64,000 bases of DNA from Candidatus Methanoperedens sp. (GTDB taxonomy: Archaea > Halobacteriota > Methanosarcinia > Methanosarcinales > Methanoperedenaceae). The notes beneath the pieces were generated by a model. The model worked only from the letters and a program-made list of their open reading frames with translations. It did no database searches and was not told the origin of the DNA. Positions 5,170 to 55,144 of the stretch are shown piece after piece (the first letter of the stretch is position 1; each line of letters begins with the position of its first letter). The translations under genes and the position numbers were made by a program. The DNA lies in the NCBI GenBank assembly GCA_012026795.1, contig VEPM01000011.1, forward strand, positions 62,001-126,000. The letters are read 5' to 3'.

Positions 5170-5215
5170 AAATTCATTTTAAACTGCTGTTAGTTGGCTT
5201 TTGTCGGAGAAATTA

Positions 5216-9234: not shown

Positions 9235-9312
9235 CTGTTTTATTTTAAAATGTCTATGTTAAAACTCTAATAATATGGAAAAATTATTATAGTGTGAAAA
9301 TCATTACCCAAT

Positions 9313-9693: not shown

Positions 9694-9717
9694 TCATTTG
9701 AGATATAATTAACTCTT

Positions 9718-10893: not shown

Positions 10894-10929
10894 TAGGCAT
10901 TCATGCGGCTAAAATAGTGTAAGCAAGTC

Positions 10930-11418: not shown

Positions 11419-11449
11419 GTATTATCTCCTTATTTTGAACTGATTAGCT

Positions 11450-12793: not shown

Positions 12794-12932
12794 AATAACA
12801 GATACAACCTCAAGAATAATATGGTTTTCCTATTGATATGCAAGCGTTAACTATACCATTATTATAGATTGTAGAAGCATTGATATATACCGGGGATACA
12901 ATAAAGAAGTGTCAGAATGGGTAAAGTAAAAT

Positions 12933-14099
12933 ATGGAAAAGCAAACTGAGAACAGTAATCTTTCTACAGTATCGCTTGTAAAGTGCCAGACCTATGATCA
13001 GTCAAATATCGATGCTGCGGTTGAAAAGGCGCTGGGGCTTATTGGCGGGATTAAAAGCTATGTTAAACCCGGTGATAATGTTCTTCTGAAGATAAATCTC
13101 CTGACAGGTGATGTTCCTGAAAAAGCAGTTACCACCCATCCTGCTTTGGTAAGGGCTATGATTCTTCAGGTTAAAGCTGCCGGAGGAATCCCGCAGGTTG
13201 GCGATTGTAGCGGCTATGAGGGAAATCCGAATTATAAAAGATATATTACAGCCTGCCGTAATACAGGTATTATGAAAGTATGCGAGGAGGAAGGAGCCCG
13301 GATACTGCATCTCAGTGCAGAGTCTATCGATGTAAAAAATCCGGGTGGCCGCGTATTCAAGAGCTTCATTTTATCAAGGCATGTTCAGGAAGCTGATGTG
13401 CTTATATCTTTACCAAAACTCAAGACCCATGGGCTGACATTATTTACCGGAGGGGTAAAAAATAATTTCGGCTGTGTAACAGGTCTCAATAAAGCAAAAA
13501 TGCATCTTCGTGCCCAGGATCCGGAAACATTTTCCCGGATGCTTGTGGATCTCCTTGGCATAGTGCGGCCTGAACTGACAGTAATGGATGCAGTGGTTGG
13601 TATGGAGGGGAACGGGCCAAGCAACGGCACGCCAAGACAGGTCAATGCAATTCTGGCAAGCTGTGACCCTGTGGCACTTGATGCAGTGGCCTGCAAGATG
13701 ATCGGCATAGACCCGCTCACAGTACCTTCCACCCGCCTGGCACACGAACAGGGTATGGGAACCGGAGATATTTCCCGTATCGATGTACGTGGAGAGGATC
13801 TGAAGGACATGCAAATTGAGGGCTTCAAGCTACCATCTGGCACAGCATCATTTTTCCGCGCAAGGGGCCTGATGCGTTTCCTTCGCAGTATGCTGGTTGC
13901 AAAACCAGAACTGGTAAGACAGCAATGCAAAAAATGCTGGATATGTATGGAACACTGCCCTTCTTGTGCGATATCAAAAAAAGAAGATTATCCTTCGTTT
14001 GATTATAAGAAATGTATCAGATGCTACTGTTGCCAGGAACTATGTCCGGGTAATGCCATTGAATTGAAGACTCCTTTTATGGGCAGGTTTGTGAAATAA
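12933..14099 (+). CDS. DUF362 protein with C-terminal 2[4Fe-4S] ferredoxin domain
   Basis: A 388-residue protein. Residues about 10-300 are a DUF362 domain (VKPGDNVLLKINLL, TTHPALVRAMI, KLKTHGLTLFTGGVKNNFGCV). Residues about 330-380 carry two cluster motifs, CKKCWICMEHCP and CIRCYCCQELCP, for two [4Fe-4S] centres. These proteins are common in anaerobic archaea and are presumed redox carriers or iron-sulfur enzymes, but no reaction is established. A TATA-like string (GATATATACC near 12880) precedes the ATG. Confidence 0.85.
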   Translation: MEKQTENSNLSTVSLVKCQTYDQSNIDAAVEKALGLIGGIKSYVKPGDNVLLKINLLTGDVPEKAVTTHPALVRAMILQVKAAGGIPQVGDCSGYEGNPNYKRYITACRNTGIMKVCEEEGARILHLSAESIDVKNPGGRVFKSFILSRHVQEADVLISLPKLKTHGLTLFTGGVKNNFGCVTGLNKAKMHLRAQDPETFSRMLVDLLGIVRPELTVMDAVVGMEGNGPSNGTPRQVNAILASCDPVALDAVACKMIGIDPLTVPSTRLAHEQGMGTGDISRIDVRGEDLKDMQIEGFKLPSGTASFFRARGLMRFLRSMLVAKPELVRQQCKKCWICMEHCPSCAISKKEDYPSFDYKKCIRCYCCQELCPGNAIELKTPFMGRFVK

Positions 14100-35153: not shown

Positions 35154-35888
35154 TTGAGGAGCAAAATAACAATCAGGAATATTTCAAAACGTCCGGTAAA
35201 TTTCGATTATCAATATGGTCTTGCATCGATGTTATACTTTAAACTTGCACAAGCCGATATCAGGTTAGCTAATGAGACACATGCTCACCAGGGATTTAAA
35301 TTCTATACTTTTTCCAATCTTGTTTTTATAAATAGGAGTTTTTGCAAATCAGGTCTTCTTTTTGAGAATGCATATTTTATCTTATCTTCGCCAGATGATA
35401 GATTTATCAAGAGTTTTGCTGAAGGGCTACTTATAGCGCCGGGGTTTTACCTGGATGGACCTGCCGGGAAGGTTGATCTGGTAATTGAGCGCATTGAAAT
35501 CCTGGAAGAAATAAGTTTTGGGGATGAATGCCGGTTCAGGGCAATTTCTCCAGTTTATGTAAAGACGATACGAAAAGAAAATGAGGACCTAAGAGAAGTT
35601 GATCTTTACCCGAAAGATCCGAAGTTCTACGAGAATCTTCATAAGAATCTGGTCCAGCGTTTCAATGAATTCTATGGTGAAGCTCCGCTGGATCATTTTG
35701 ACATAATAGAGATAAACGATATGAAACCCAAACGGATCAGGATATCTGAAGGTTACAGGCGCTGCAGCCTGTTCCGGATGCGGCTCCAGGCAAGCCCGGA
35801 ACTTTTGAAGTTCGCGTTTGATGCTGGACTCGGGGAGAAGAATGCGATGGGGTTCGGGTGTGTGGATGTTGTAAGGCAGCCAACATGA
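35154..35888 (+). CDS. cas6: CRISPR endoribonuclease Cas6
   Basis: A 244-residue RAMP protein. The C-terminal glycine-rich loop GLGEKNAMGFGCV is diagnostic of Cas6, and the double ferredoxin-fold layout fits the length. A histidine in NETHAHQGFKFYTFS (about residues 39-53) is the candidate catalytic residue. Cas6 cuts the precursor transcript within each repeat, leaving the ATTGAAAC handle. The start is TTG with CAGGAGATTT before it. It is separated from the other cas genes by 1.4 kb holding a Doc toxin and repeats. Confidence 0.9.
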   Translation: MRSKITIRNISKRPVNFDYQYGLASMLYFKLAQADIRLANETHAHQGFKFYTFSNLVFINRSFCKSGLLFENAYFILSSPDDRFIKSFAEGLLIAPGFYLDGPAGKVDLVIERIEILEEISFGDECRFRAISPVYVKTIRKENEDLREVDLYPKDPKFYENLHKNLVQRFNEFYGEAPLDHFDIIEINDMKPKRIRISEGYRRCSLFRMRLQASPELLKFAFDAGLGEKNAMGFGCVDVVRQPT

Positions 35889-36184: not shown

Positions 36185-36316
36185 ATGAGATATCAAGCAA
36201 AACAGCCCAAGACAGTTGTAAGAAACGAAGAAGGGCTTACATCCAAAGAAAAAGAAGAAGTATTGGAAATAATGAAAAAAAATGATAAAGCTCTCAAGAT
36301 ATTAGCCCGGATGTAG
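36185..36316 (+). CDS. Possible 43-residue basic miniprotein convergent with doc
   Basis: The frame encodes 43 residues starting MRYQAKQPKTVVRN, with a charged helical C-terminal half (SKEKEEVLEIMKKND). A TATA box (TTTATATA, 36154-36161) lies 24 bp before the ATG, consistent with a leaderless mRNA. Its end overlaps the end of the convergent Doc gene by 15 bp. No conventional antitoxin is found upstream of doc, so this could be a partner, but that is speculation. Confidence 0.4.
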   Translation: MRYQAKQPKTVVRNEEGLTSKEKEEVLEIMKKNDKALKILARM

Positions 36317-36673
36317 TTCTCTGATTGATTTTTTGACCCATTTTTCTATTGTTTTTACCGAACATTTGTATTCTGCTATTTTTATCATAAAATCAACTTT
36401 TTTTTCAGCTTCTGCATGAATGTAATATCCTTCATCGTAAAGCATTTTTTCTGCCGTCACCAGGGCTGTTCTTTTATTTCCATCAAAAAACGGGTGTTGG
36501 GACGTTATCATGTGCAGAACCATAGATGATTGTCTTAACACATTATGCTCACGATTCACTTTATAGACGAGCATTTCCAGTGTAGCTTCACTTAATACAC
36601 CACTTGTCCCGCCATATTTTTGTATGATCTCGTCATGGATTTCGATTATTTTCCTGACTGTGAGTTCTGCCAT
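36302..36673 (-). CDS. Doc-type toxin (Fic/Doc family)
   Basis: A 123-residue Doc protein with the catalytic motif HPFFDGNKRTAL (HxFxDGNKR) at about residues 60-71. Doc toxins phosphorylate and inactivate elongation factor Tu/1A. I placed the start at the ATG at 36673 (MAELTVRKIIEIHDEI), which has GGGAAC upstream; a longer frame reaches 36727. The usual Phd-like antitoxin gene is not visible upstream, where there is only repeat DNA. Confidence 0.85.
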   Translation of the reverse strand: MAELTVRKIIEIHDEIIQKYGGTSGVLSEATLEMLVYKVNREHNVLRQSSMVLHMITSQHPFFDGNKRTALVTAEKMLYDEGYYIHAEAEKKVDFMIKIAEYKCSVKTIEKWVKKSIRELHPG

Positions 36674-36773
36674 CTGGTTCCCTTTTGATCGAACTTGCTT
36701 AAAAACTCGACTATCATATATAGTCATTCAGCGTCAAATAACCCGATAGGAATTCAAAGATTAATTGAACGCT

Positions 36774-36952: not shown

Positions 36953-37309
36953 ATGAAGGCGGAGAAGAGAAGTGGTAAAGCAAAAAGCAAGAAAAAGAAT
37001 CTTGCGTCTGAGTGCCCTTCTCCGAAAGAAACGGAGATGACACCCGAAGACATTTCGAAGCATATTCCACAATGTGAAAATGTCGCTGATGGATTGATGG
37101 CTCTTACAGACGATGCATATTGGAAACAGATGCTGGAGATAGGCAAGAAACATTTTGATAATGAATCTCTTGCAAAAGAGTTTTTCAAAAGGGGCTCGGT
37201 TTCGATGCTGCTCCTGATGATAAGCCTGGAGATGCCCCCTGAGTTCCTGGATCGGATAGATGAGATTTTGAGGGAGGCGAAGAAGATGAGGGTGGGGGAG
37301 GGGAAGTGA
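36953..37309 (+). CDS. Unknown 118-residue helical protein, first gene of the cas operon
   Basis: A 118-residue protein with a lysine-rich N-terminus (MKAEKRSGKAKSKKKN) and an all-helical remainder (EDISKHIPQCENVADGLM, AYWKQMLEIGKKHF, PPEFLDRIDEILREAKKM). Its stop overlaps the cas8 start (TGATG), so the genes are translationally coupled. I do not recognise a named family. Size, charge and position would fit a separate small subunit (Cas11-like) of the Cascade complex, but type I-B small subunits are usually made from within cas8, so this is only a hypothesis. Confidence 0.65.
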   Translation: MKAEKRSGKAKSKKKNLASECPSPKETEMTPEDISKHIPQCENVADGLMALTDDAYWKQMLEIGKKHFDNESLAKEFFKRGSVSMLLLMISLEMPPEFLDRIDEILREAKKMRVGEGK

Positions 37310-38700
37310 TGAATAAAGATATTGAAATGAAAAATGAATTTGTTGGGGATCCACTCGTTGATTCCGGTTTGCTCGCAATTAAATTATTGGGAAAGAAAGA
37401 AATAAATGACTGTTCAAAGGATGAATTAAGAAAGATATCAAATGAACTTGTTGAGCTTTATCTAACTCCTGCTTGGTCAAAAGATATTTTATCCATATTT
37501 CCAAATAGCACTTATATTCAATATGCAAAGAATTATGATAGGGAAGGAAAGTCCAAAGAGTTCTTATATGAATTAATAGATGGTTTAAATAAATATGAAA
37601 CGGATGGAGATTATTGTATTTTTTGTGGGAAACCTGCATTCAAGAGGAAAGATGATAAACCATTCGTCAAAACTCAAATACCTTTAGTCGGTTCATCTGA
37701 TTTTACTAATTTTTCTCCATCATTTAAAAATGGCATTGCAATTTGTGCAAAATGTGCTTTTGTAGTCCAATTTGCACCGATTCTATTTTATAAAACAGGT
37801 GGGAAACCAAGTTGCATAAGCTGTAACAATATTAAGATAATGAAGAGATTTGGAGAGGAATGTATAGAATATATTACTCAAAATAAATTACTGAATGGTT
37901 ATAAATCCAAAGATGTCTCTGGCATATTTGATGAGGGTTTTAAATCAACACAAAATGCATTGTTTCATTTAGCATATAAAACCTCTACAAAATATAAAAA
38001 ATTAGGACTTTTAAAACAAAACGAAGAAATTGTAATATATCGCATTGATAATTATAATCAAAGTCCAGCCGGGGTTACAATACATAAAATACCGAATAAT
38101 ATTTTCAGGTTTGTTATCAATGTAATGACAAGTCCTCAATACAAAAAAAATTGGTATGATTTACTTTCAAAACATTATGCAAAATCAGATACAAAAAGTG
38201 ATTCTCCAGTCTGGAAAATCAGTTATAATAGGATTCATGATTCTTTATTAAAAAATGAAACTATATTATGGGCTTTCAGAGATGATATCGAAAAGAAACC
38301 TACATTACCGTGGATTATAGTTGAATATTATATGGAGTTAGTGAGAAATATGAATAAACAGAGAATTGAGGGCATCAAAAATCTGGCTGATAAAATCGCC
38401 ATCTGCATCGAAGAGAGTAAAAATAAAAAGAGGATTAACGATATTATTTCAGCCAGAGATTTACCAACTTTTAGAAATCAATTGAGATTAGTTTTCAGGG
38501 ATTGGCAAAAATTGGGTAAGGAACAACCAATGATAACATATGAAGAATATATCTCAATAATCATCCCTGAAGATTATTCCAATTGGAAAGAAGTTCAGGA
38601 TTTAATAATAATAAGGTTATACGAAAAATTGCATAATATTCTATCGAGTGTAGTAAACGATGAAGTCGAACAAGAAAAATCAAAAGGTGATGAGGAATGA
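37309..38700 (+). CDS. cas8: Cascade large subunit Cas8 (Cas8b/Cst1-like)
   Basis: A 463-residue protein between the operon's first gene and cas7, the usual place of the large subunit. It has three Cys pairs that could bind zinc: CIFC at about 103-106, CAKC near 147-150 and CISC near 170-173, as in Cst1-type Cas8 proteins. The large subunit recognises the PAM and anchors Cascade. I prefer the ATG at 37309 (the frame also allows GTG 37306), directly after the purine-rich GGGGAGGGGAAG. Sequence divergence in this family is high; the assignment rests on position and the Cys pattern. Confidence 0.75.
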   Translation: MNKDIEMKNEFVGDPLVDSGLLAIKLLGKKEINDCSKDELRKISNELVELYLTPAWSKDILSIFPNSTYIQYAKNYDREGKSKEFLYELIDGLNKYETDGDYCIFCGKPAFKRKDDKPFVKTQIPLVGSSDFTNFSPSFKNGIAICAKCAFVVQFAPILFYKTGGKPSCISCNNIKIMKRFGEECIEYITQNKLLNGYKSKDVSGIFDEGFKSTQNALFHLAYKTSTKYKKLGLLKQNEEIVIYRIDNYNQSPAGVTIHKIPNNIFRFVINVMTSPQYKKNWYDLLSKHYAKSDTKSDSPVWKISYNRIHDSLLKNETILWAFRDDIEKKPTLPWIIVEYYMELVRNMNKQRIEGIKNLADKIAICIEESKNKKRINDIISARDLPTFRNQLRLVFRDWQKLGKEQPMITYEEYISIIIPEDYSNWKEVQDLIIIRLYEKLHNILSSVVNDEVEQEKSKGDEE

Positions 38701-39740
38701 AAACAATAATAGGAACTTATTTAATTGATGCGCCATTTTCGGCGCTGAATAATCGAGGAATAGATCAGAGAGCAGCGAACGAGAATGAAGTAGCAACAAA
38801 AGTAATTCAATCTCCAGAAGGGATGAGACCATACGTTTCAGCACAGGCGTTAAGATACTGGTGGAGAATGGTTTTAGAAAATAAATTTGGATGGAAATGC
38901 TCACCTGTGGAAAAAATTGGAAAAAATCAAGCTGTTACGAAAGGTGATCCATTGGAATACGATGATGACGATATTTTTGGGTATATGAGCGCCAGAAAAA
39001 TTGAAACTTTAGAGAAAGATAAAAAAGATAAGTTAAAGATGGAAAATGTGACTGTTACAAGAGTATCTCCATTAAAATGCTCGCCTTTAATTGGATTTCC
39101 AATAAGACCTACTTCAGATTTTGGTGTATTAGTGAGAAAACTTGAAACTGATCCAATACTTTTCACTCATCAATTTTATAGCAATATATTTAAAGGTATT
39201 TTTGCGCTGGATATTGATTCAGTCGGAAAATTTACAATAATTGATAAACCCGGTAGCAAAAACTTATCAAAAGACCTCGCAGAAAAGTATGAAAAAAATG
39301 GATTAAAAAAAGATGAAAAAACATATGTACTTACGTTAGAAAAAAAGAAGACGCGAATTTCTGATACCATTAAAGCTCTGAAGTTTTTGAATGGTGGTGC
39401 CATGCAGACATTGCATCACACTGATGTAACTCCTAAGTTAATTATGCTGGCGGTATTGAACAATGGCAATAATATATTCATGGATGTAATGCCTCACAAT
39501 AAATACGATAATGGATTGGTCAATATCGATGCATTATCTGAAATGTTGGAGGATTATAAGGATTCACTATTGAGCAAAGTCTATATCGGTAAATTATCAG
39601 GCTTTGGATCAGATAAAGATAAAGAATTGGATAGTTTCAAAGCGCCAGATGGAGTTAACGTTGTGATTACGACTCCAGTTAAAGCAATTGATCAATTCAT
39701 AGAGGAGATATTGACAAATACTAAAATTATTGGCGAATAA
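38697..39740 (+). CDS. cas7: Cascade backbone Cas7 (Cst2/DevR family)
   Basis: A 347-residue RAMP backbone protein. Typical Cas7 Cst2/DevR parts are the N-terminal TYLIDAPFSALNNRG, RPYVSAQALRYWWR and the later FLNGGAMQTLHHTDVTPKL. Several copies coat the crRNA in the interference complex. The start overlaps the cas8 stop (ATGA) and the stop lies 1 bp before the cas5 ATG. Confidence 0.85.
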   Translation: MKTIIGTYLIDAPFSALNNRGIDQRAANENEVATKVIQSPEGMRPYVSAQALRYWWRMVLENKFGWKCSPVEKIGKNQAVTKGDPLEYDDDDIFGYMSARKIETLEKDKKDKLKMENVTVTRVSPLKCSPLIGFPIRPTSDFGVLVRKLETDPILFTHQFYSNIFKGIFALDIDSVGKFTIIDKPGSKNLSKDLAEKYEKNGLKKDEKTYVLTLEKKKTRISDTIKALKFLNGGAMQTLHHTDVTPKLIMLAVLNNGNNIFMDVMPHNKYDNGLVNIDALSEMLEDYKDSLLSKVYIGKLSGFGSDKDKELDSFKAPDGVNVVITTPVKAIDQFIEEILTNTKIIGE

Positions 39741-39741
39741 T

Positions 39742-40395
39742 ATGGAAGTTCTTCGTGTTGAAATACGGGCGATTACAGCTTCATTTAGATACCCTATGTT
39801 TGTGGTATCTTATCAGCCTACATATAAAATTCCTCCAATATCTACGATATATGGTTTGCTCTCCGCTGCAAAGGGTGAAAAAGTCAGTGTTTATGATTTA
39901 TCCATTGGTTATGATTTTACATCTAAAGGAAGCGGTGTTGATCTGGAGCGGATTCTTGAGTTCGGTGGGGGGGATAAAAATAAACCCGTTTCATATCTTG
40001 GCAGCAATATAATACATAGGGAATTTTTATATGATTGCATATTGACATTATATATATCGGATTTAGGTTTTAAAAAATATTTAGAGAACCCGCACTTCAC
40101 TCTTTTACTTGGCAGACAATCAGATTTAGCTAAGATAACAAAGATAGAAGAAATGACTTTGATTCCAAAAGAAAATGTTGAAATATATAATACAATGATA
40201 CTTTTCGATGGGAAAGTGCCAGGACAAATCGTTGCTTTACCCTCTGATTATACAGATGAAGCTGAAAGAAAACCAATTGAAGTAAGAACTTATTGTATCG
40301 TAGAATCAAAACAACTGATTGAAAGAGCATACTATGATACTGAGCTAAATAAGGGCGTATATATGCATGAGTTCAACGATAAAAGCAAAAAGTAA
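39742..40395 (+). CDS. cas5: Cascade subunit Cas5
   Basis: A 217-residue RAMP protein with the Cas5 N-terminal pattern EIRAITASFRYPMFVVSYQPTY...PPISTIYGLLSAA (quoted in parts). Cas5 binds the 5' handle of the crRNA and caps the backbone. I prefer the ATG at 39742; a TTG at 39730 inside cas7 is also in frame. It overlaps the start of cas3 by 29 bp. Confidence 0.85.
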   Translation: MEVLRVEIRAITASFRYPMFVVSYQPTYKIPPISTIYGLLSAAKGEKVSVYDLSIGYDFTSKGSGVDLERILEFGGGDKNKPVSYLGSNIIHREFLYDCILTLYISDLGFKKYLENPHFTLLLGRQSDLAKITKIEEMTLIPKENVEIYNTMILFDGKVPGQIVALPSDYTDEAERKPIEVRTYCIVESKQLIERAYYDTELNKGVYMHEFNDKSKK

Positions 40396-42547
40396 TGGCG
40401 AATCACTTGAAGAACATACAAATAATTGTCTTAATATTTTCGCTCAGCTAAAGGATATTTATCCAGACTTACAAAAATTTACAAATTATCCTTCTTTTTA
40501 TAATGATACTTTTGATGCTTTGTTTTTTCATGATTTTGGTAAGGCTGCAGAAGGTTTTCAAAAATCATTATCTCCAAAAGGAGAAGAATGGAAGTATAGG
40601 CATGAAATTCTTTCAACACCACTTATTAATTGCCTGAACAAAGAAAATCTCGATTTTGTCAAGATATTAGTACTAACTCACCACAAAGATATTAATAAAT
40701 TAGTAGAATATATTGAAGATAGCGATTTTTTGGGTATTCGTTATGAAGAACGATTAGAGGAAATCAAACCTAATATAAATGCACTGAATGAAATAATAAC
40801 CAAATATCCAGAAATCTCTAAAAAAATATTAGGCACAATAGAATGCAAAGTCGATCTTATTGAGAATATATCGAAAGATAAGTCGATATGGGAGGAAATA
40901 ATACAAAAGAAAAGAATGGATTTTTCATCAAAGATGGGGATATTTGGAAAAGGGATGATAAATTCTTGTGATTATTTAGCTTCCAGTGGGATAAAAACGA
41001 TTCTTAAACCATTACCAAGCTTGAGTAATGTATATAATTTTAAGTCCGTTACGAGTGTTCAGGAAAAGTGTTTATCAACTAAAGGTAATGCGATTATTAT
41101 TTCACCAACCGGTTCTGGAAAAACTGAAGCATCCCTATTTTGGGCTACAAATAATCTCGATAAAACACTAGGAAATAGAATATTTTATGTTTTACCCTAC
41201 ACTGCGAGTATAAATGCAATGTATAGGCGATTGTTGATTAAATTAAGCCCATATTATTCAGATGATAGTTGTGTATCATTATTACATGGAAAAGCGTCTT
41301 ATTTTTTATATAAGATGTTCTATGATGGTGATTTTAGAGGAATACATAATTTATCTAAGAAAATTTATAGTCCATATAAAGTAATGACACCTTTTCAAAT
41401 TTTAAAACATTTCTTTTCATTGAAAGGATATGAGATGGGATTATTAGAAATGTACCGCGGGAGATTTATTTTTGACGAGATACATTCTTATGATGCCAAA
41501 ACAGCGGGATTGATATTATCTATGTGTGAGTATTTGATAGAGGAGAATGATGCCAAAATATTGATAATGTCTGCAACGATGCCATCATTTCTGAAAAATA
41601 TGTTTTTAGATAATCTTCATATTGGGAATGAAATGTTTATGGATAAAAAAGAATTGAGCAAATACCTTCGCCATAAATGCAAGATAATCGATGGAGATAT
41701 CCTTGCAAATATTGATCTAATAATAAAAAGATTGCAGAATAAAGAAAAAGTTTTGGTTGTATGTAATACCGTAAATAGAGCCCAGAATGTTTATAATAAA
41801 TTGAAAAATGTAGTTACCGAATCTGCTTTGTTGCATGGTAGATTTATCTTGAAAGACAGGGAAACAATTGAAAAAAATCTTGAAAATCTGAATTTATTAG
41901 TGGGTACACAAGTCATTGAAGTTTCGCTTGATATTGATTATGATGTATGTTTCTCTGAACCGGCTCCAATTGATGCTTTAATACAGCGATTTGGAAGAAT
42001 TAATAGACGAAAAAATAGCGATGGATTACCACTCAAAGGCATTTGCGATGTATTTGTTTTTTCAAAAGGTTCTGAAAATGATCGATATATCTATGATAAA
42101 ATGATTGTAAATAAAACTTTAAAAGTTCTCAGTGAAATTGACTTATTGTTTGAAGATAAATTATATCAAGCAGTCGATGAAATATATATTAATGGTTTTG
42201 GCAATAAACAAAAAGAATTTGAAGATACGAAAACTTCATTTAGAAAAATGATAGATAGTATAGTACCTTTCAATAATTCAAACACAAGAGAATCAGACTT
42301 TTATAATTTATTTAATTCCATAGAAGCAGTTCCTGAAAAATATCGGCAGGAATATCTTGACCGTATCCGAAATAAAAAGTTATTCGATGCCATGCAATAT
42401 TGTCTGCAATTAACGAATGGTCAATTTCAAAAACTACTCAAAGAAGGACGGGTTGATTTCGACAAAAAGACTTTTATAACTGCAAAATATGATCCAGAAT
42501 TGGGATTATTGATAAATGAACATGAAGAAAATCAAAATATAATATAA
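40367..42547 (+). CDS. cas3: CRISPR helicase-nuclease Cas3
   Basis: A 726-residue protein with both Cas3 parts. HD nuclease: H17, FFHDFGKA at 53-60, and HH at 105-106. Superfamily 2 helicase: Walker A SPTGSGKTEA at 246-255, DEIH at 370-373, SAT at 402-404 and motif VI QRFGRINRR at 539-547. It unwinds and degrades target DNA recruited by Cascade. All motifs look intact, so the enzyme should be active. It is the last gene before the toxin-antitoxin insertion. Confidence 0.93.
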   Translation: MSSTIKAKSNGESLEEHTNNCLNIFAQLKDIYPDLQKFTNYPSFYNDTFDALFFHDFGKAAEGFQKSLSPKGEEWKYRHEILSTPLINCLNKENLDFVKILVLTHHKDINKLVEYIEDSDFLGIRYEERLEEIKPNINALNEIITKYPEISKKILGTIECKVDLIENISKDKSIWEEIIQKKRMDFSSKMGIFGKGMINSCDYLASSGIKTILKPLPSLSNVYNFKSVTSVQEKCLSTKGNAIIISPTGSGKTEASLFWATNNLDKTLGNRIFYVLPYTASINAMYRRLLIKLSPYYSDDSCVSLLHGKASYFLYKMFYDGDFRGIHNLSKKIYSPYKVMTPFQILKHFFSLKGYEMGLLEMYRGRFIFDEIHSYDAKTAGLILSMCEYLIEENDAKILIMSATMPSFLKNMFLDNLHIGNEMFMDKKELSKYLRHKCKIIDGDILANIDLIIKRLQNKEKVLVVCNTVNRAQNVYNKLKNVVTESALLHGRFILKDRETIEKNLENLNLLVGTQVIEVSLDIDYDVCFSEPAPIDALIQRFGRINRRKNSDGLPLKGICDVFVFSKGSENDRYIYDKMIVNKTLKVLSEIDLLFEDKLYQAVDEIYINGFGNKQKEFEDTKTSFRKMIDSIVPFNNSNTRESDFYNLFNSIEAVPEKYRQEYLDRIRNKKLFDAMQYCLQLTNGQFQKLLKEGRVDFDKKTFITAKYDPELGLLINEHEENQNII

Positions 42548-43358: not shown

Positions 43359-43781
43359 ATGCTTCTTGTTGTTGATGCAAATGTTGTTTTTTCCGTTCTT
43401 ATCAAAGGTGGGAAAACATTTGATATTTTTATTTTGAATAGAGCAAATAAAAGATTTGAATTCGTGGCTCCTGAATTTCTTATGGTGGAAGTTGAAAAAC
43501 ACTCCAGAGAGATACTTAAGAAAACTGGACTTTCAAGTGAAGAGCTTGGGAAAGTACTTAATTTTCTTGGAAAAGAAATTGATTTTGTTTCATTTGAGGA
43601 GTTTGCAGAATTTTTCAGCGACGCAGAAAAAATATCCCCTGACCCTAATGATGTTCAGTATTTTGCACTTGCTCTGAAATTAAACGGAGTTATTTGGTCT
43701 AACGATAAACTATTGAAAAAGCAGTTTGCAATTAAAGTACTATCAACAGGTGAAGTGATAAAATTGATGCAATTTGAATAG
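43359..43781 (+). CDS. VapC-like PIN-domain toxin
   Basis: A 140-residue PIN nuclease with the acidic residues in place: D6 in VVDANVV, E42 or E44 in MVEVEKH, DPNDVQYFALAL near residue 97 and WSNDKLL near 114. Such toxins cut tRNA or rRNA. It starts at the base after the antitoxin stop. The pair sits between element copies A and B. Confidence 0.85.
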   Translation: MLLVVDANVVFSVLIKGGKTFDIFILNRANKRFEFVAPEFLMVEVEKHSREILKKTGLSSEELGKVLNFLGKEIDFVSFEEFAEFFSDAEKISPDPNDVQYFALALKLNGVIWSNDKLLKKQFAIKVLSTGEVIKLMQFE

Positions 43782-44074
43782 TTCCAGCCAGATGCTCCAC
43801 ACCCTCGCTTTTCCCGCTGCGCAGCCTTTAGAGATTCTGCACTTCCAACATTCTCCCTGCCGGCGCCGCAGTAAACAGAAGCGAACAAGCGCGAGATATT
43901 ACCCATGTATCCGATCCACGTTCATCGGCCTGCGGTTTCTTATTTCGCCAAGCACCAGAAGTTTATCACATAGTAAATATATTGATTATGGAGAAAGCCC
44001 CTCCCTTCCGATCAAACTTTCCCCGCCCCCTATTTTTCATCAATTTCCGCGCCGCCATCTCTTGGCAAACCCTT

Positions 44075-44209
44075 CGCGCTTTGCGGTGATGCCCCCTGAT
44101 TCTTGCGGATAAAAACAGCCCTGTATTATATTATACAATGCAACCGCTGATTTCATATTAAACCCCGCCATCGGCGCACCGGGGTCTGGTGTCGCAACCC
44201 CGGCGCCGT
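44075..44209. repeat. Structured intergenic element, copy B
   Basis: The core (44161-44209) repeats copy A but lacks a few bases (CGGCGCACCGG in place of CGGCGGCGCCTCACCGG). The left flank (44075-44160) closely matches copy A, including CCCCTGATTCTTGCGGATAA. It lies between vapC and the TumE pair. The remaining gap 43782-44074 contains degenerate pieces of the flanking repeat (near 43950-43990) and no gene. Confidence 0.8.
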
Positions 44210-44285
44210 ATAATGTTGGCCAAAAGTTGTTTATAGTAAGTTCATTTGCGGTTTTGGTTTTCGCGTAGCTCCGGAAATTAATTTA

Positions 44286-44303
44286 AGATTATTTATATAA
44301 TCT
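44286..44303. promoter_or_regulatory. Palindrome AGATTAT-TTAT-ATAATCT
   Basis: A perfect 7-4-7 inverted repeat located between copy B and the end of the TumE gene. Its half-site is the same 7-mer (AGATTAT/ATAATCT) that makes up the palindrome before the cas operon, in opposite order. It could be an operator, a promoter or a terminator. Confidence 0.35.
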
Positions 44304-44349
44304 ACCAAGGAGTGATGCCCTGCGCCCGATCTCTTCCGGGAATGAACAG

Positions 44350-44700
44350 CTATTTTTCCAGTTTACTTCGCACGAATGCCAGTACGCACATCACATTTTC
44401 CTCTATTGTATTGTCGATCTCAGTAATCGAATCCTCAACTACATTCTCTTCCTTTCCGATATGCATGTGTCTTGGAAAAGTCGAAAGCTTGCGATGGTGG
44501 GGCGCAGTATCAATCCTTATCATTTCATCTTCACGCTGCCAGTGGAATGAGTATTTGGAATCAACAGGGTATCTTATGTCCATATATGAGCCATCGACAA
44601 AAACAAGTCTCACCTTATCACTATAAATTATTGGTGCCTCGCTTAAAATATTCAAAAAATGCTCTTGCGCGCATTGAGCAACAATAAAAAGCCTGTGCAT
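44350..44700 (-). CDS. TumE-like toxin
   Basis: A 116-residue protein with the TumE (DUF6516) pattern: VRLVFVDGSYMDIRYPVDSKYSFHWQREDEMIRIDTAPHH (partly quoted: DSKYSFHWQRED, RIDTAPHHRKL) and FPRHMHIGKEENVVE. Members are toxins of two-gene toxin-antitoxin systems; the mechanism is not well defined. Its start overlaps the last base of the upstream antitoxin-like gene. A fragment of a second copy lies near cas4. Confidence 0.75.
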   Translation of the reverse strand: MHRLFIVAQCAQEHFLNILSEAPIIYSDKVRLVFVDGSYMDIRYPVDSKYSFHWQREDEMIRIDTAPHHRKLSTFPRHMHIGKEENVVEDSITEIDNTIEENVMCVLAFVRSKLEK

Positions 44701-44987
44701 TATATTCTCTTTACGAGATTATCCAGCAGCTTCTTGAGGTCTTTTATATTATGTTCATAAGAAAGCGCTGAAAGGTAATCTTCATATGCCGGATGCTCCT
44801 CAATCTTACCTTGCTCAATCATTTTTTCAATAGTTTCTGGATTTTTTGCATTATATTTCTGTAATATACTTTTTAACAATTCCTTTTCCTCTGAGATTTT
44901 AGATAAAATAAGAAATGTTTCCGTCTCTACACCTCTTACATGCGGGCTTATTATTGTCGGTTGAGCTGCTTCAGATGCACTATTCAT
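44700..44987 (-). CDS. Putative antitoxin of the TumE-like toxin
   Basis: A 95-residue helical protein (TETFLILSKISEEKELLKSIL, later LSALSYEHNIKDLKKLLDNL). It precedes the TumE-like gene with a one-base overlap, so it is the likely antitoxin. I do not see an obvious HTH motif, unlike the Xre-type TumA of bacteria. A TATA box lies at 45024-45033. Confidence 0.65.
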   Translation of the reverse strand: MNSASEAAQPTIISPHVRGVETETFLILSKISEEKELLKSILQKYNAKNPETIEKMIEQGKIEEHPAYEDYLSALSYEHNIKDLKKLLDNLVKRI

Positions 44988-45023
44988 AAAATCTGCCTAT
45001 AAACTAACAATTAATAAGTTTCA

Positions 45024-45033
45024 GTATATAAAA
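45024..45033 (-). promoter_or_regulatory. TATA box of the TumE pair
   Basis: On the minus strand this reads TTTTATATAC, about 37-46 bp before the ATG at 44987. Confidence 0.5.
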
Positions 45034-45268
45034 AGATGTCGGGAAATTATCTGTGCTGCCCCTCAAAATCCTTTCCTGACATGAAAGCACTTTTTTACTA
45101 TGATCTATAGTCTCTATTTTCCGATTTTCACCCCCAAATGGTCTCTTTGCGGACTCTGCCCCCGCATCTTCCGGACGACCCCGCAATAAAAAGAGACGGG
45201 CGTATTATTTTATTCTACAATGCAAGTATGGATTGTTGTAATTCCATGCAAGAGATGATTTCATGCCA

Positions 45269-45452
45269 AACCCCGCCATCGGCGGCGCCTCACCGGGGTT
45301 CTGGGGTCGTAACCCCGGCGCCGTTGATAATATTCTCTGGAATTTCACATTTGGGGGATTTCCTTCTTCCTCCGCAAAGCGCTGGAAATTTATCATAAAG
45401 TAATTATATTTTTAATAACACAGATATAGCGCCGCTATCGGAACTCCCCACA
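45269..45452. repeat. Structured intergenic element, copy C with right flank
   Basis: The core (45269-45323) has the full form with TTGATAATATTCTC to its right. The right flank to 45452 (GCGCTGGAAATTTATC... AATAACACAGATATAGC) is shared with copy D. It separates the TumE pair from the UPF0175 gene. The rest of the gap (45034-45268) contains GC-rich degenerate repeat sequence and no gene. Confidence 0.8.
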
Positions 45453-45476
45453 TTCCCATAACCTTCCAGCATCATG

Positions 45477-45758
45477 CTATATTCCCATTCTTTTCGCAGT
45501 TTCAATATCTTCATTGAGTTCCGAAATCCCATAGTTCAAAGGGATATTCGAATCTTTCATGATCCCCAGCATCTCGGTTCGACTCACTCCAAGCAAAGCC
45601 GCCATTTTGGCAAGAGATATCTTCCCTTCCCTGTAAAGTTCCAGCAGGAAATTCTTCTTCACAAAATATTCAATACGAGTTTTATCGATACCAAGTGAAT
45701 ATAAAATATCAACAGGTAATTGTATCTCTGTTTTGATGGTTTTTGCAGCTACTGTCAT
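45477..45758 (-). CDS. UPF0175 family protein
   Basis: A 93-residue protein starting MTVAAKTIKTEIQLPVDIL, with the family's LELYREGKISLAKMAALLGVSRTEML helix-turn-helix-like segment (about residues 45-70). UPF0175 proteins are small antitoxin-like proteins often next to PIN-domain genes; no toxin partner is visible here. I chose the ATG at 45758 because TTATAATAAAAG lies about 25 bp upstream, fitting a leaderless transcript; ATG 45797 is an alternative. The frame reaches 45983 only by reading through repeat copy D. Confidence 0.75.
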   Translation of the reverse strand: MTVAAKTIKTEIQLPVDILYSLGIDKTRIEYFVKKNFLLELYREGKISLAKMAALLGVSRTEMLGIMKDSNIPLNYGISELNEDIETAKRMGI

Positions 45759-45896
45759 AATAACTAATTTTAGTTCTTTTATTATAAGCGTTTGCATAAC
45801 TGCTTCCAAATCCACAAAAATACGATCCTGCCCCCACCGCATCCATTTTTCTTCCGCGAATATGTTCCTGCCATAAGCAACCGGTTGATATCTTAT

Positions 45897-46080
45897 AAAC
45901 CCCGCCATCGGCGGCGCCTCACCGGGGTTCTGGGGTGGCAACCCCGGCGCCGTTGATAATATTCTCAGGAATATATTTCGCATTTGGGTTGCCTATGCCT
46001 CCGCGAAGCGCCAGAAATTTATTGCACAATAATTATACTTTCCGATAACACAGAAATAGCACCGCTTTTCAGCACGCGCC
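45897..46080. repeat. Structured intergenic element, copy D with right flank
   Basis: The core (45897-45952) matches copy C except for GGTGGCAACC in place of GGTCGTAACC. The right flank (GCGCCAGAAATTTATT... AATAACACAGAAATAGC) matches copy C's. It lies between the UPF0175 gene and the TumE remnant. The stretch 45798-45896 shows no other feature. Confidence 0.8.
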
Positions 46081-46244: not shown

Positions 46245-46811
46245 ATGGCAATATCAAATCCAACGTTGAAAAAAGAAGAAAAAGCGCAACCTGACGACAT
46301 AATAGCCGGAGCCATGCGCATCACTGGCGTTAAAGTAACATACTATTTCATATGTCATACAAAACTCTGGTTATTCTCGCACAACATCACACTTGAGAAG
46401 GATCATGACAATGTGAATATCGGGAAACAGCTGCATGAAGACCGCTATAAGCGCGACTCAAAAGAGATCACCATTGACCAGACGATAAGCATCGATTTCA
46501 TCAGGAAGGGAGATACCATTGTTCTCCATGAAATAAAGAAGACAAAAAGCATGGAAGAGGCGCACCGCTGGCAGATGCTGTATTACCTGTATTATCTCAA
46601 ATCAAAAGGCATACAGGCCACCGGGGAGATAAATTACCCCCTCGTTAGCAAGAAAGAAGAGATAACTCTTCTTGGAAAGGATGAATCCGATATGGAAAAT
46701 GTGATAAATGATATCAGGAAGATCGCGATGGGAAGAATGCCCGTGCCTGAGAAGACCAGGATATGCCCGAAATGCGCTTATTATGAATTTTGTTTCGGAG
46801 ATGAAGTATGA
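46245..46811 (+). CDS. cas4: CRISPR adaptation nuclease Cas4
   Basis: A 188-residue RecB-like nuclease. One cysteine lies in the N-terminal part ([12 protein letters not shown]) and three in [11 protein letters not shown] at the C-terminus, giving the [4Fe-4S] site. The active-site HEIKKTKSM lysine motif is at about residue 100. Cas4 trims prespacers and helps select PAMs. It overlaps cas1 by 4 bp. Confidence 0.92.
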
Positions 46812-47797
46812 AGGAAGATTACTATATTACCCAGGACGGAGGCCTCACAAGGCATGAGAATACCGTATATTTCGAGAACGATAACACAAAACGCGCCCTT
46901 CCGGTAAATAAGATTTATTCAATATACGCATACGGGCGGCTAAGTTTTTCCTCCGGTGTAGTGGATTACCTTGCAAAGAGCGGGATACCCATACATTTCT
47001 TTAATTATTATGGTTTTTATGAAGGGTCTTTCTACCCGCGCGAAACGTTGATAAGCGGTGACCTGACAGTGAAACAGACATCGAATTATCTTGACAGCGC
47101 AAAGAGGCTGATCCTTGCGAAATGTTTTGTGGAAGGCGCATGCGGCAACATTCTGCGCAACCTTAACTATTATGCGCGTGATAATAAAAGCCTGGAAACG
47201 CATATCGGCGGGATCGAATCCGAGATAGCAAGATTGCCAGGGACAGAAACCATCCCCGAAGTCATGAATGTGGAGGGGCGGATAAGGAACCTGTATTATA
47301 CGGCGCTTGATGAAATATTCCCTGAGAATTATAAGATAATCAAACGGTCAAGGATGCCCCCGGAGAACAGGATGAACACACTCATCAGTTTCGGGAATTC
47401 CCTGATGTACACAACCACCCTTTCTGAGATATACAATACCCAGCTTAATCCCACCATTTCTTTCCTCCATGAGCCTTTTGAGCGAAGATTCTCGCTTGCT
47501 CTTGATGTTAGCGAGATTTTCAAGCCCATTATTATCGACAGGATCATCCTGAAGCTTGTGAATAAGAACATGCTTGATGATGATTGTTTCAGGGGCGAAA
47601 TCGGGGATATGCTGCTCAGTGAGAAAGGGAAAAAATTGTTCCTGACAGAATATAATGAGAAGCTTTCCACAACCATCAAGCACAGGGGATTGGAACAAAA
47701 CGTTTCATTCAAGCGGCTCATAAGACTTGAGTTATATAAACTGGTGAAGCACTGCCTCGGTGAAAAGGACTATAAGCCGCTGATTATGTGGTGGTAA
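46808..47797 (+). CDS. cas1: CRISPR integrase Cas1
   Basis: A 329-residue Cas1 of the type I-B kind. The active-site residues are visible in [17 protein letters not shown] (glutamate at about 152), [22 protein letters not shown] (histidine near 219 and glutamate/aspartate near 230). It inserts new spacers with Cas2. The coding region overlaps the start of cas2 by about 10 bp. Confidence 0.95.
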
Positions 47798-48063
47798 CCC
47801 TGTACGTAATAATCGTTTATGATGTCGGGATTGAAAGAGTGAATAAGGTAAGGGTTTACCTGAAGCAGTATCTGAATTGGGTGCAGAACAGCGTGCTGGA
47901 AGGTGAACTAACAGAGGCTGAATACATGAAGGTTATGAATGGTCTCAAGGATGTGATCGATGAATCAGTGGATAATGTCATTTGCTACAAAACGAAAGAC
48001 AGGAAGTATCTTGCTATTGATGAGATCGGGACGAAGAAAGCTGAGATAACAACGATAATATGA
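47788..48063 (+). CDS. cas2: CRISPR adaptation protein Cas2
   Basis: A 91-residue Cas2 with the ferredoxin-like start [20 protein letters not shown] containing the conserved aspartate, and [18 protein letters not shown]. The start is a GTG at 47788 or 47791, inside the end of cas1. It forms the adaptation complex with Cas1. The CRISPR leader begins directly after it. Confidence 0.93.
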
Positions 48064-48258
48064 GGGATTCCTGAAAAAGTCGTGGATCTTTATAAAGGAA
48101 ATACAAAACCCAAGATGCACGATAATAAATTCTATTTTTGCAAAGGTTTTTGTGGAATGAGTTCTAATTAGATTTGAGAGAAAATCAATAGACAATACCT
48201 GAAAAAATAGTCTATTTTTCCAAGAGATTCACCTGAAAATTCGGCTGGAAAAAGCTTG
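48064..48258 (+). promoter_or_regulatory. CRISPR leader
   Basis: This 195-bp AT-rich stretch separates cas2 from the first repeat and carries no gene, the usual form of a leader with promoter and integration signals. A perfect palindrome AAAAATAG-T-CTATTTTT is at 48203-48219, about 40 bp before the first repeat. Confidence 0.8.
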
Positions 48259-51200
48259 GTTAAAATCAGCCCTTAGAGGGATTGAAACAAGCAATTCGTA
48301 ACGGCAGCTATGAGGCAGGCATAAGTTAAAATCAGCCCTTAGAGGGATTGAAACTAATTTATCACCTTCCTTCATACCAGGACAACAGCGTGTTAAAATC
48401 AGCCCTTAGAGGGATTGAAACAAATCCTCCTTTTCCCATCTCCGTCGTTGTCATCGTGTTAAAATCAGCCCTTAGAGGGATTGAAACTTCTGTTAACTTG
48501 TCCGCGTGCTCCTGGTCATATCCCGTTAAAATCAGCCCTTAGAGGGATTGAAACATTCATTCCGCTGATTTATATACGGTAATTTATATGGTTAAAATCA
48601 GCCCTTAGAGGGATTGAAACCGATATACTTGAAGCATATCAATTCACCCGTGACAGTTAAAATCAGCCCTTAGAGGGATTGAAACGCTTAAAGGTGAGGA
48701 CATGGAAACAATAATTGATAGGGTTAAAATCAGCCCTTAGAGGGATTGAAACACCTCAAGGATTCGACGCAAGCGCGGCTACAAATGAGTTAAAATCAGC
48801 CCTTAGAGGGATTGAAACGCAGTATACCGCCTGCTGCTGACGCTATCGCCGATAGTTAAAATCAGCCCTTAGAGGGATTGAAACGAAACAAAGGATAACC
48901 CCGCTATCGCTGTCCTTTTGGTTAAAATCAGCCCTTAGAGGGATTGAAACCGGTATGAGGATGAAATATCTTTTACTGCTTATGCGCGTTAAAATCAGCC
49001 CTTAGAGGGATTGAAACAATAATTTCATGGTTGATCAATTTATTGTGGAATCTGTTAAAATCAGCCCTTAGAGGGATTGAAACCTGTTAAACGGTTCGAT
49101 TGACCTAAGAACGTGGAATAGTTAAAATCAGCCCTTAGAGGGATTGAAACAAATGTTGGCATCATTCGGCAAAAAACCCGTAAAGAGTTAAAATCAGCCC
49201 TTAGAGGGATTGAAACAATAACGATAGCCCGAAGAGCTGTTACCCACGTTCCCGTTAAAATCAGCCCTTAGAGGGATTGAAACATATCACCTGATATCTT
49301 ACTGTACAACAGGTATGCAGTTAAAATCAGCCCTTAGAGGGATTGAAACCTCCGTAAAACAGACAGGGAAGCGATAGAAAGACGCGTTAAAATCAGCCCT
49401 TAGAGGGATTGAAACACGGTTGGTCGTGGTTTATAAGGGGTACGCATCATGATCGTTAAAATCAGCCCTTAGAGGGATTGAAACATTTCCAACATTGGCA
49501 ACGACGCACCTCAAATTCCGGGTTAAAATCAGCCCTTAGAGGGATTGAAACCTATCTCTTGTTTCGTCAGATAACTATAAAAATGTCCGGTTAAAATCAG
49601 CCCTTAGAGGGATTGAAACACAGCGGCAGAAGGTGTTAGAGGAGATTTCAGAATAGTTAAAATCAGCCCTTAGAGGGATTGAAACCACGGTTGATACCAG
49701 TAATGCTCAGATAATCGTTTGAGTTAAAATCAGCCCTTAGAGGGATTGAAACTGGGAAACATGAAGAAAATGGTCAACAAAAAAGCCTTGTTAAAATCAG
49801 CCCTTAGAGGGATTGAAACTTAAAAGCAATATCAAGTTTATCTCAAATTGAAAGAGGTTAAAATCAGCCCTTAGAGGGATTGAAACGAAAAATTGATATG
49901 TCCAAATTCGGAACATAATCCAGTTAAAATCAGCCCTTAGAGGGATTGAAACATAGTCCTCAAGGGCACGCTGTTTGTTCATCCCGGCCGTTAAAATCAG
50001 CCCTTAGAGGGATTGAAACTCCGCATGCTCCGATTCACCTAAACCGCTATCGGTCTGCGTTAAAATCAGCCCTTAGAGGGATTGAAACTGTCTTCAAGTC
50101 TCTTGTTCTATACGGATAGCGTCTTGTTAAAATCAGCCCTTAGAGGGATTGAAACTCTGTTTCCCATGTGAAATTCTTCTCTTCAGACACAGTTAAAATC
50201 AGCCCTTAGAGGGATTGAAACGTCGTTACAGGAATATCAACGTCGTACTCCTGATTTGGTTAAAATCAGCCCTTAGAGGGATTGAAACAAGCAATTCGTA
50301 ACGGCAGCTATGAGGCAGGCATAGTTAAAATCAGCCCTTAGAGGGATTGAAACGGGAGTTCGGGACTTATATTGCGAATGTTATTGTATAGTTAAAATCA
50401 GCCCTTAGAGGGATTGAAACGCGTCAGGCTTCGTTCGATCGCTGCCATATGCCTGTGTTAAAATCAGCCCTTAGAGGGATTGAAACTGTATAACTTCAAT
50501 ATCGGCATACTTTGAATACGCCGTTAAAATCAGCCCTTAGAGGGATTGAAACCCGGGCGGTATTGTTCCCATAAGCAAACCCTGAACTGTTAAAATCAGC
50601 CCTTAGAGGGATTGAAACACCGAAATCAAAGAGATTGTCATTTCACATGGCGTAGTTAAAATCAGCCCTTAGAGGGATTGAAACATTTCCGTATCAAGGG
50701 GATTGATACGGAGACCTACAGAGTTAAAATCAGCCCTTAGAGGGATTGAAACGTGTAACATCTCATACATTTGATTGGGACTTGGCAATGTTAAAATCAG
50801 CCCTTAGAGGGATTGAAACACGGCAGATACCTGGAATGTACTGGGTAATTTCGTTGGTTAAAATCAGCCCTTAGAGGGATTGAAACATAACATATTTACC
50901 AAGGAATCGAAACGAAGTAGTTGTTAAAATCAGCCCTTAGAGGGATTGAAACAAGCAATGCTTTTTTCGGCAGGGTTATTGATTAATAGTTAAAATCAGC
51001 CCTTAGAGGGATTGAAACTCTGATCAATCTGTTCAATCTGTTCATACTAAAGAAGTTAAAATCAGCCCTTAGAGGGATTGAAACTTATTTTTGTATCCAT
51101 ATCAAAACTAATATTTTTATTGTTAAAATCAGCCCTTAGAGGGATTGAAACAAGGTATGCGAGGACAGAACACAAAAAAGCAAAAAAGTTAAAATCAGCC

Positions 51201-54200
51201 CTTAGAGGGATTGAAACATGATAGATGGTTCCGCGGCTGTAGCTATTATGTCGGTTAAAATCAGCCCTTAGAGGGATTGAAACTTGGTAATGACTGCAAT
51301 AAATCCATCAATTATCATCCGTTAAAATCAGCCCTTAGAGGGATTGAAACAACAATGTTTGTATCAAGTAGGTAGCACGTACACTTAGTTAAAATCAGCC
51401 CTTAGAGGGATTGAAACGAAGTTACCCTTACTGTGGTTCCTCTGGGGGGAGGGTTAAAATCAGCCCTTAGAGGGATTGAAACATGTCATTGTTGCTAATT
51501 TTGGAGTTAACAACCAGGCGTTAAAATCAGCCCTTAGAGGGATTGAAACGCCTAAAGGCATGGGGCTTCTCCTGAGCTAACTTCTGTTAAAATCAGCCCT
51601 TAGAGGGATTGAAACTTCATATGCTTCATTATTACAGAAAATACATTTCCTCGTTAAAATCAGCCCTTAGAGGGATTGAAACATATTAAATGTAGTCGAT
51701 CAGACAAGTTTGTATCCTTGTTAAAATCAGCCCTTAGAGGGATTGAAACTTACTAAACGGTTCGATTGACTTACGGACATGGCATGTTAAAATCAGCCCT
51801 TAGAGGGATTGAAACTTAACTCAATATTGCATACTCTGCAATTCATTTTATAGTTAAAATCAGCCCTTAGAGGGATTGAAACATCTGTACTGCCTGATTA
51901 ATTGTGAACTCGCCTATTTTCGTTAAAATCAGCCCTTAGAGGGATTGAAACATTTTCTATTACCCATCATATTGATATGTTTAATGGTGTTAAAATCAGC
52001 CCTTAGAGGGATTGAAACTATTTTGTTTTGTCTATTGACATTTTTCTACCTCTTGTTAAAATCAGCCCTTAGAGGGATTGAAACTTCTATACATGGATAT
52101 GACGTAAATATGTTTATTTCGTTAAAATCAGCCCTTAGAGGGATTGAAACATTTTTTTAGAAGTAAATCTTACACCATTACCAACAAGTTAAAATCAGCC
52201 CTTAGAGGGATTGAAACTGCGAACAAAACCACTAATAGTGGACACCGAAATTAAGTTAAAATCAGCCCTTAGAGGGATTGAAACATGGCTCCCATCAGAT
52301 TACTTCAATAAATACAAACCGTTAAAATCAGCCCTTAGAGGGATTGAAACGAGAGCAGAATGCGAAAATAGAGTGATGGTCAGTTTAGTTAAAATCAGCC
52401 CTTAGAGGGATTGAAACCTTACTAATAAGGTCTATGCTGGCTCGGAGTCTTCAGTTAAAATCAGCCCTTAGAGGGATTGAAACTTAAAATAACAGAAAGG
52501 TGGTTGGGCAGGTGAAGGCTGTTAAAATCAGCCCTTAGAGGGATTGAAACACATGAGTTTTATATATTCTTTTTTATCGAATTGATAGTTAAAATCAGCC
52601 CTTAGAGGGATTGAAACACCCAACTCATATAACACACTGAGAGGTGGCGAATGTTAAAATCAGCCCTTAGAGGGATTGAAACAAAATATCTTCTGGAGTT
52701 GTGCTTTCAAATACGTCATGTTAAAATCAGCCCTTAGAGGGATTGAAACTATTAATCCTGACTACTCGAATTAATCTTTACGAACGTTAAAATCAGCCCT
52801 TAGAGGGATTGAAACTCTAAAGTAGACTTTGGAAAGACACCAGTAGAGATTCGTTAAAATCAGCCCTTAGAGGGATTGAAACTTGTGAGCTATAATCATA
52901 TCGGGATCATTCACTTTAAGTTAAAATCAGCCCTTAGAGGGATTGAAACACATTTCGGCATTGAGTTGTTCTATTTCGTGTTTCGTGTTAAAATCAGCCC
53001 TTAGAGGGATTGAAACTAAGTCAATCGTGCCATTCAAAAGCGGAAATTTCACGTTAAAATCAGCCCTTAGAGGGATTGAAACTCGATTCGGATGGCAAAG
53101 CGCTGAAAGAGATGAATAGTTAAAATCAGCCCTTAGAGGGATTGAAACGTGATTATACACTCATTTTTCAATGCATATATTAGGTTAAAATCAGCCCTTA
53201 GAGGGATTGAAACAAGAAAACAACAAAGGGAATGATTGGACCACTTTAAGTTAAAATCAGCCCTTAGAGGGATTGAAACGAACATTGGATAATTACATAG
53301 GAATATATAATGAAATGTTAAAATCAGCCCTTAGAGGGATTGAAACTACTGTCCCAATCATACTACACCCACAACCTCATATTGTTAAAATCAGCCCTTA
53401 GAGGGATTGAAACAAGAAACTATGTTTCTTCAAAAGATGTGATGGCTTGTTAAAATCAGCCCTTAGAGGGATTGAAACATTACCCATGATATTGATAGGT
53501 TTTACACTCAAATAGGTTAAAATCAGCCCTTAGAGGGATTGAAACTTATAACACCTTAATAAATACTGATTTTCCTTCTCTGTTAAAATCAGCCCTTAGA
53601 GGGATTGAAACCAGAATTATATCTCCAAAGCGTCGATTAGCAAGCAAGTTAAAATCAGCCCTTAGAGGGATTGAAACGACCCTATCTCAAAATACTCCTT
53701 TTCCCATTTCCTTCGTTAAAATCAGCCCTTAGAGGGATTGAAACTACATTGATGTCAGCTATCGAATATTTCTTGACCGAGTTAAAATCAGCCCTTAGAG
53801 GGATTGAAACTTTTGTAGACACTCGAACCGTCCGCCCTTATAGCTGGTTAAAATCAGCCCTTAGAGGGATTGAAACTTGTAAGCACGCCTTCATTGTACA
53901 TGCGCCCGACATCGGTTAAAATCAGCCCTTAGAGGGATTGAAACGCAGCTATTTCAACATTCATGTCACTCCATTCTCCGTTAAAATCAGCCCTTAGAGG
54001 GATTGAAACGTTTTACCGCGCCAACTTCCGGAAGAGGATAATAGTCGTTAAAATCAGCCCTTAGAGGGATTGAAACGGAGTTGCCTCAAAGTTAAAAAGA
54101 TGACCAGTTTCTTGGTTAAAATCAGCCCTTAGAGGGATTGAAACATCATCGGGAAATCCCTGAAGACGTTCACATTCTATGTTAAAATCAGCCCTTAGAG

Positions 54201-55144
54201 GGATTGAAACTCAATACGACCGCTTCCCCTTTTCCGTCTAAATCCCAGTTAAAATCAGCCCTTAGAGGGATTGAAACTCAGTAGTGATGTAAGTTACAGG
54301 GGTATCTGGTGATGTTAAAATCAGCCCTTAGAGGGATTGAAACGGCAAACTCCTGGTCTATGAAAGACTGATCAACTTTTGTTAAAATCAGCCCTTAGAG
54401 GGATTGAAACAATACACACACTTTAATATTTGGAATGTCTTCTGGTGTTAAAATCAGCCCTTAGAGGGATTGAAACAAGATACAATATATGTAAACAAAA
54501 TAGCAGAGAAATAGTTAAAATCAGCCCTTAGAGGGATTGAAACAACACCTACAGTTATACAATTATTAAAACCTTAATAGTTAAAATCAGCCCTTAGAGG
54601 GATTGAAACTTATTATGTGGTATTCTTCCTCTATATTGTTCTGATAAAGTTAAAATCAGCCCTTAGAGGGATTGAAACATACATCACCCAAACGGATATT
54701 GGACGGCTGAACGAAGTTAAAATCAGCCCTTAGAGGGATTGAAAGGCTTGCAGAAAACGATAAGGGTCAGAGATTCCGTATAGTTAAAATCAGCCCTTAG
54801 AGGGATTGAAAGTCATTAATTCCAGTTTCCCATGAGTTGAAGTATCTGCCGTTAAAATCAGCCCTTAGAGGGATTGAAAGGATAAATAGCTAGAATTCAT
54901 AGTAGCATAATCTGGAGTTAAAATCAGCCCTTAGAGGGATTGAAAGATTAAAGTTGATTGTCCCTGCCGTTGCATTCCCCGAGTTAAAATCAGCCCTTAG
55001 AGGGATTGAAAGATTAAATACAAGCGAAGTATTGGTTATATTTATATTGTTAAAATCAGCCCTTAGAGGGATTGAAACTTGAGATATATTGTACTCACTG
55101 TGTTTACTCCAGTTGTTAAAATCAGCCCTCAGAGGGATTGAAAC
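48259..55144 (+). CRISPR. Type I-B CRISPR array, 104 repeats and 103 spacers
   Basis: By direct reading I count 104 copies of a 30-bp repeat (starting GTTAAAATCAGCCC, ending AGGGATTGAAAC) with spacers of 35-39 nt. The repeats are nearly invariant. Five copies near the distal end (54716, 54783, 54851, 54917, 54983) end in G, and the last (55115) has CCCTC in place of CCCTT. Next to cas2 and a leader, the array is read rightwards; the ATTGAAAC end becomes the crRNA handle. Spacer 1 (48289-48324) and spacer 31 (50289-50323) are the same sequence. All frames running through the array are artefacts. Confidence 0.99.

Follow-up and report, generated by a model that had tools for sequence, protein, structure and literature searches.

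The CRISPR array of Candidatus Methanoperedens sp. that lies in the window (the whole stretch of 64,000 nucleotides that was analysed) very probably holds two captures of one and the same protospacer, made by a type I-B system with Cas4 and separated by 29 surviving acquisitions. Spacer 1 (48289..48324, + strand) is adjacent to the leader, 36 nt long and has the sequence AAGCAATTCGTAACGGCAGCTATGAGGCAGGCATAA; spacer 31 (50289..50323, + strand) is the older copy of 35 nt, ends in ...GGCATA and is followed by the G of the repeat. Both share the leader-proximal end, and spacer 1 consists of spacer 31 plus one terminal A at the leader-distal end, which confirms the near-identity described in the original prediction. 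The pair has a local alignment score of 35, where shuffled spacers reach 13-16 at most, and the chance of a 35-nt identity is ~4e-17 when all pairs examined are taken into account. With up to three mismatches allowed, spacers 1 and 31 are the sole copies in the 3.59-Mb genome. Repeated spacers are usually dismissed as array duplications, and array duplication is indeed their commonest source: in a SpacerPlacer survey of 24,090 spacers, 695 repeats were duplications and 8 were re-acquisitions (~1%) (PMC11472070). It has also been considered conceivable that a second encounter yields the same spacer twice (PMC8047081). The probable re-capture in spacers 1 and 31 is thus a rare yet known type of event, and it recurs in the genus Candidatus Methanoperedens.

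The array (48259..55144, + strand) consists of 104 repeats of GTTAAAATCAGCCCTTAGAGGGATTGAAAC and 103 spacers of 35-39 nt, and is the single array with this repeat in the genome. It is classified as type I-B, since cas8b, cas7, cas5b and cas3 are present and cas4-cas1-cas2 adjoin the array. The acquisition nuclease gene cas4 (46245..46811), the type I-B cas1 (46808..47797) and cas2 (47788..48063) as well as the effector genes cas8b1/cst1, cas7/cst2, cas5b and cas3 (37306..42547) are all located on the + strand and have NCBIfam, Pfam and PADLOC matches; a candidate cas6 open reading frame upstream of cas8b (35154-35888) was judged cas6-like by eye. In known systems, Cas4 trims and orients the PAM end. 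The leader (48064..48258, + strand) extends from cas2 to repeat 1 and terminates in AAAAAGCTTG, a motif that is conserved upstream of the arrays of sister species, where it ends at or adjoins repeat 1. Repeats 1-97 are all identical, repeats 98-102 have G as the last base, repeat 103 carries C again and repeat 104 is degenerate (54716-55144), so that repeat degeneracy is confined to the leader-distal end. The cas2 side is the leader side of the array, as cas4-cas1-cas2 lie directly upstream, degenerate repeats are found at the far end only and the motif AAAAAGCTTG is conserved. From this polarity, spacer 1 is inferred to be the newest spacer. The final repeat base also differs among congeners (C, T or G).

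According to the proposed mechanism, Cas4-Cas1-Cas2 would have taken the same protospacer, GGCAGCTATGAGGCAGGCATA, on two occasions, the second time when the same invader, or one that had hardly changed, was met again. The leader-side end, probably the PAM side, would have been placed at the identical base in both captures, and the far end would have been set by a looser ruler, which gave 35 nt first and 36 nt second. The PAM position would then precede AAGCAATTCG, and the base following the protospacer of spacer 31 should be A. The additional A of spacer 1 is not an over-run copy of the array because the array base after spacer 31 is G. The original prediction derived independent capture from the difference in length. 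Independent capture is the best-supported reading; the length argument is insufficient alone, however, since a 1-nt indel after copying also alters length. Two independent spacers of this array differ by exactly 1 nt with a probability of 0.46, and the observed difference is therefore as independent capture predicts.

Alternatively, repeat recombination or replication slippage could have moved a copy of spacer 31 towards the leader, followed by loss of the intervening block and by insertion of one A in the copy or deletion of one A in the original. This route is unlikely, even though array duplication is common, exact duplicates of equal length are present in two sister arrays and, formally, copying could have been followed by a 1-nt duplication of A where the spacer meets the repeat. 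It requires three events, namely a duplication, an exactly placed deletion and the gain or loss of the terminal base. Array duplicates have equal length and often share neighbours, whereas the two copies here are 36 and 35 nt long and their neighbours differ. Spacer 1 stands singly at the leader end and the spacers that follow it are unrelated to those that follow spacer 31, which led us to reject a block duplication of the array. Furthermore, the 97 identical repeats contain no mutation. In repeats 32-97, which are older than spacer 31, there are 0 changes in 1,980 nt, from which less than about 0.1 substitutions would be expected in both spacer copies together, a bound on neutral change that is soft if selection acts on repeats. 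Strong homogenisation of the repeats is argued against by the survival of the G-ending block of repeats 98-102. Indels should be rarer than substitutions, and an indel precisely at the last base should be far less expected. Copying by recombination or slippage also leaves the in-register synonymous or substituted pairs described below unexplained.

The arrangement of spacers 1 and 31 corresponds to the class that SpacerPlacer terms 'reacquisition', in which the old spacer is kept and the same one is re-inserted at the leader end (PMC11472070): the second copy is found at the leader end, and the older one has been retained. SpacerPlacer assigns this class from strain trees, whereas it is assigned here from spacer ends and sister arrays.

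To a very small degree, it is conceivable that the second copy or its additional A is an assembly or sequencing artefact, as the array is known from the assembly alone and combines 97 identical repeats with a genome in 68 contigs. Each copy lies in a unique context, however, with the leader on one side of spacer 1 and distinct neighbours elsewhere, the difference between the copies lies outside any long homopolymer, and similar pairs are present in independently assembled sister genomes. Still more remote is the idea that the source of spacer 1 was not an invader but spacer 31 in the array of the cell itself. Acquisition hotspots can lie at active CRISPR loci, as in Pyrococcus and during Haloferax mating, according to work cited in two articles (PMC7521656, PMC8406132); but a capture from the array that is one base longer would give ...CATAG and not the observed ...CATAA, the repeat end GAAAC would be needed as PAM, and repeat-derived bases occur in none of the sister-array pairs.

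Double capture of one protospacer is also indicated by the arrays of relatives. The comparison set comprised this array and arrays of six congeners whose repeats belong to the same family, giving nine arrays with 554 spacers in 7 genomes. Nine spacer pairs had a score of at least 19, and about one pair scoring 17-18 was obtained from shuffled controls; with a score of 15, the pair 34/54 is inside the shuffle range and was therefore rejected. All nine homologous pairs are on the same strand and within one genome, eight of them within one array, and the chance that 9/9 pairs fall within single genomes is 2e-7 under random placement. Five pairs are near-identical (10/554 spacers, ~2% in this genus survey), and the leader-side start is common to both members in 5/5. 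In three of these five, the far ends are offset by 1 nt. Two of the three are also substituted near the start, spacers 24/30 of array L047 (36/37 nt) at position 2 and spacers 40/41 of array L045 (38/37 nt) at position 3. In type I systems, seed escape is expected at positions such as 2 and 3. Both substituted pairs would suit the re-capture of escape mutants; at least the substitution in L045 40/41, however, leaves the amino acid unchanged in an open frame, and drift is therefore possible. The remaining two near-identical pairs, spacers 2/7 of L046 and 27/42 of L047 (36/36 nt each), are exact, and they need not be copies because equal length is commoner than not for random spacers in those arrays.

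More diverged pairs also keep the same register. Spacers 13 (49084..49120, + strand) and 53 (51750..51785, + strand) begin at the same codon, read LLNGSIDLRTWN/H, and 7/8 of their differences are synonymous in the shared frame; the two spacers target one peptide site (LLNGSIDLRTW in both) in diverged invaders. In a congener with two arrays, L043-44 and L044-18 start at the same base, all differences (7/7) are synonymous and the reverse strand encodes the peptide VTRVDIRRLWA in both. The reading frames of these diverged pairs are the best of six, and the forward frame of L043-44/L044-18 is also open, with 5/7 differences being synonymous. Synonymous in-register differences originate in protein-coding sequence of the invader and not in the array, and the machinery therefore does return to precisely the same site in related invaders. 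The diverged in-register pairs are the strongest evidence for re-capture, as array copying cannot produce them. Two further pairs are homologous with a shift, namely spacers 56 (51952..51988) and 79 (53479..53515) with a shift of 7 nt and spacers 3 (48422..48457) and 82 (53678..53714) with a shift of 12 nt, all on the + strand.

In total, exact register is found in 7/9 pairs, and free ends predict it for 1.5% of overlapping pairs (P ~6e-12). One protospacer end is therefore fixed by a precise signal, which is presumably the PAM. Given a 2-nt PAM, the register excess is still notable (P ~3e-4); given a 3-nt PAM, it is not (P ~0.09), and there is no proof that sites are preferred for anything beyond their PAM. 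The machinery thus keeps one end of the protospacer constant, lets the other vary and does capture sites again. Combined, the same leader-side end, a variable far end, unmutated repeats and synonymous in-register homologues distinguish re-capture from copying with no need for strain data, and they provide natural evidence for precise anchoring of one protospacer end in archaeal type I-B acquisition. The type I-B systems of Haloferax volcanii (PMC7521656) and Clostridioides difficile (PMC8406132) resemble the present one in having cas4-cas1-cas2, spacers of ~34-40 nt with variable length and acquisition hotspots, the 34-40-nt spacers of C. difficile being derived from known sources. In both species, the spacers were acquired in the laboratory and mostly from self DNA or plasmids, whereas a natural array is described here. 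Differences of 1 nt in the length of new spacers together with a fixed PAM are also known from primed type I-F adaptation (PMC4117759). There, spacers have 32 or 33 nt and slippage can shift the PAM end; in contrast, the leader-side end is constant in the near-identical pairs of this study.

The second capture may have been caused by repeated exposure, by interference-driven uptake or by a hotspot at the site. Of the 22,250 within-array pairs, five are near-identical, a frequency that implies an effective pool of ~4,450 protospacers (95% range 1,900-13,700), about as many as a single 35-kb element offers with a 2-nt PAM. If an array derives from few invaders, such pairs would arise without a hotspot; if it derives from many, a hotspot would be needed. 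A birthday calculation for an array dominated by one invader of ~40 kb gives about one such duplicate without a hotspot, and the very strong hotspot that the original prediction offered beside repeated exposure is therefore not required. When targeting was strong in the type I-B system of Haloferax, no acquisition hotspot stood out more than the target site of the crRNA itself (PMC7521656), and spacer 31 may therefore have helped to feed spacer 1, the cutting guided by spacer 31 possibly supplying the DNA fragments for the capture. A general refresh of memory, in which an existing spacer cuts its own target and the same protospacer re-enters at the leader end, is a speculative and rather improbable extension. 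If true, memories that are old, poorly expressed or partly escaped would be renewed, and the seed would sometimes be updated, for which the sister pairs with a change at position 2 or 3 would be examples. With ~2% of the spacers (10/554) in near-identical pairs, it becomes testable whether old spacers steer the re-capture of their own targets.

The protospacer of spacer 1 was searched for in viral contigs, and neither exact 19-20-mers from both ends and the core nor codon-degenerate patterns of the two open forward frames had a match; the patterns of spacers 13 and 53 had none in viral contigs either. An exact match over 22 nt to a Planctomycetota contig was rejected, as the identity ends at both 22-nt borders and the gene encodes a chromosomal surface-type protein. 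With up to three mismatches, spacer 1 was found only in the array itself, both among 31 congener genomes (1.7-3.7 Mb) and among 186 members of the order (one genome per species). The whole array gave only weak, irrelevant matches to phages and plasmids, and the pooled recent spacers had no spacer or target in common with the genus. All collected spacers were further used to scan a congener provirus and 10 terminase-related viral contigs, where no target of spacer 1 was present. This provirus (genome G001, contig C5, ~250-277 kb, L056-L058) is tailed-virus-like and encodes a terminase, a portal protein, a major head protein and an MCM helicase. Two of that genome's own spacers match it partially, less than 160 bp apart, which is too few for a PAM.

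Three more cas1 loci are found in the genome of the studied array, L048 (C27), L049 (C9) and L050 (C16), each with its own array of a different repeat (18, 10 and 46 repeats, respectively); no spacers are common to these arrays and the main array. The genome contains mcrA, and the top solved relatives, 9qr1 and 9qqt, score far above Methanosarcina, which makes an assignment to Candidatus Methanoperedens probable. The cas operon of the window is split between cas3 and cas4 by toxin-antitoxin-like genes (43359-45983), namely PIN_2, TumE with its neighbour and UPF0175, and a Fic-domain gene is located upstream (36302-36727).
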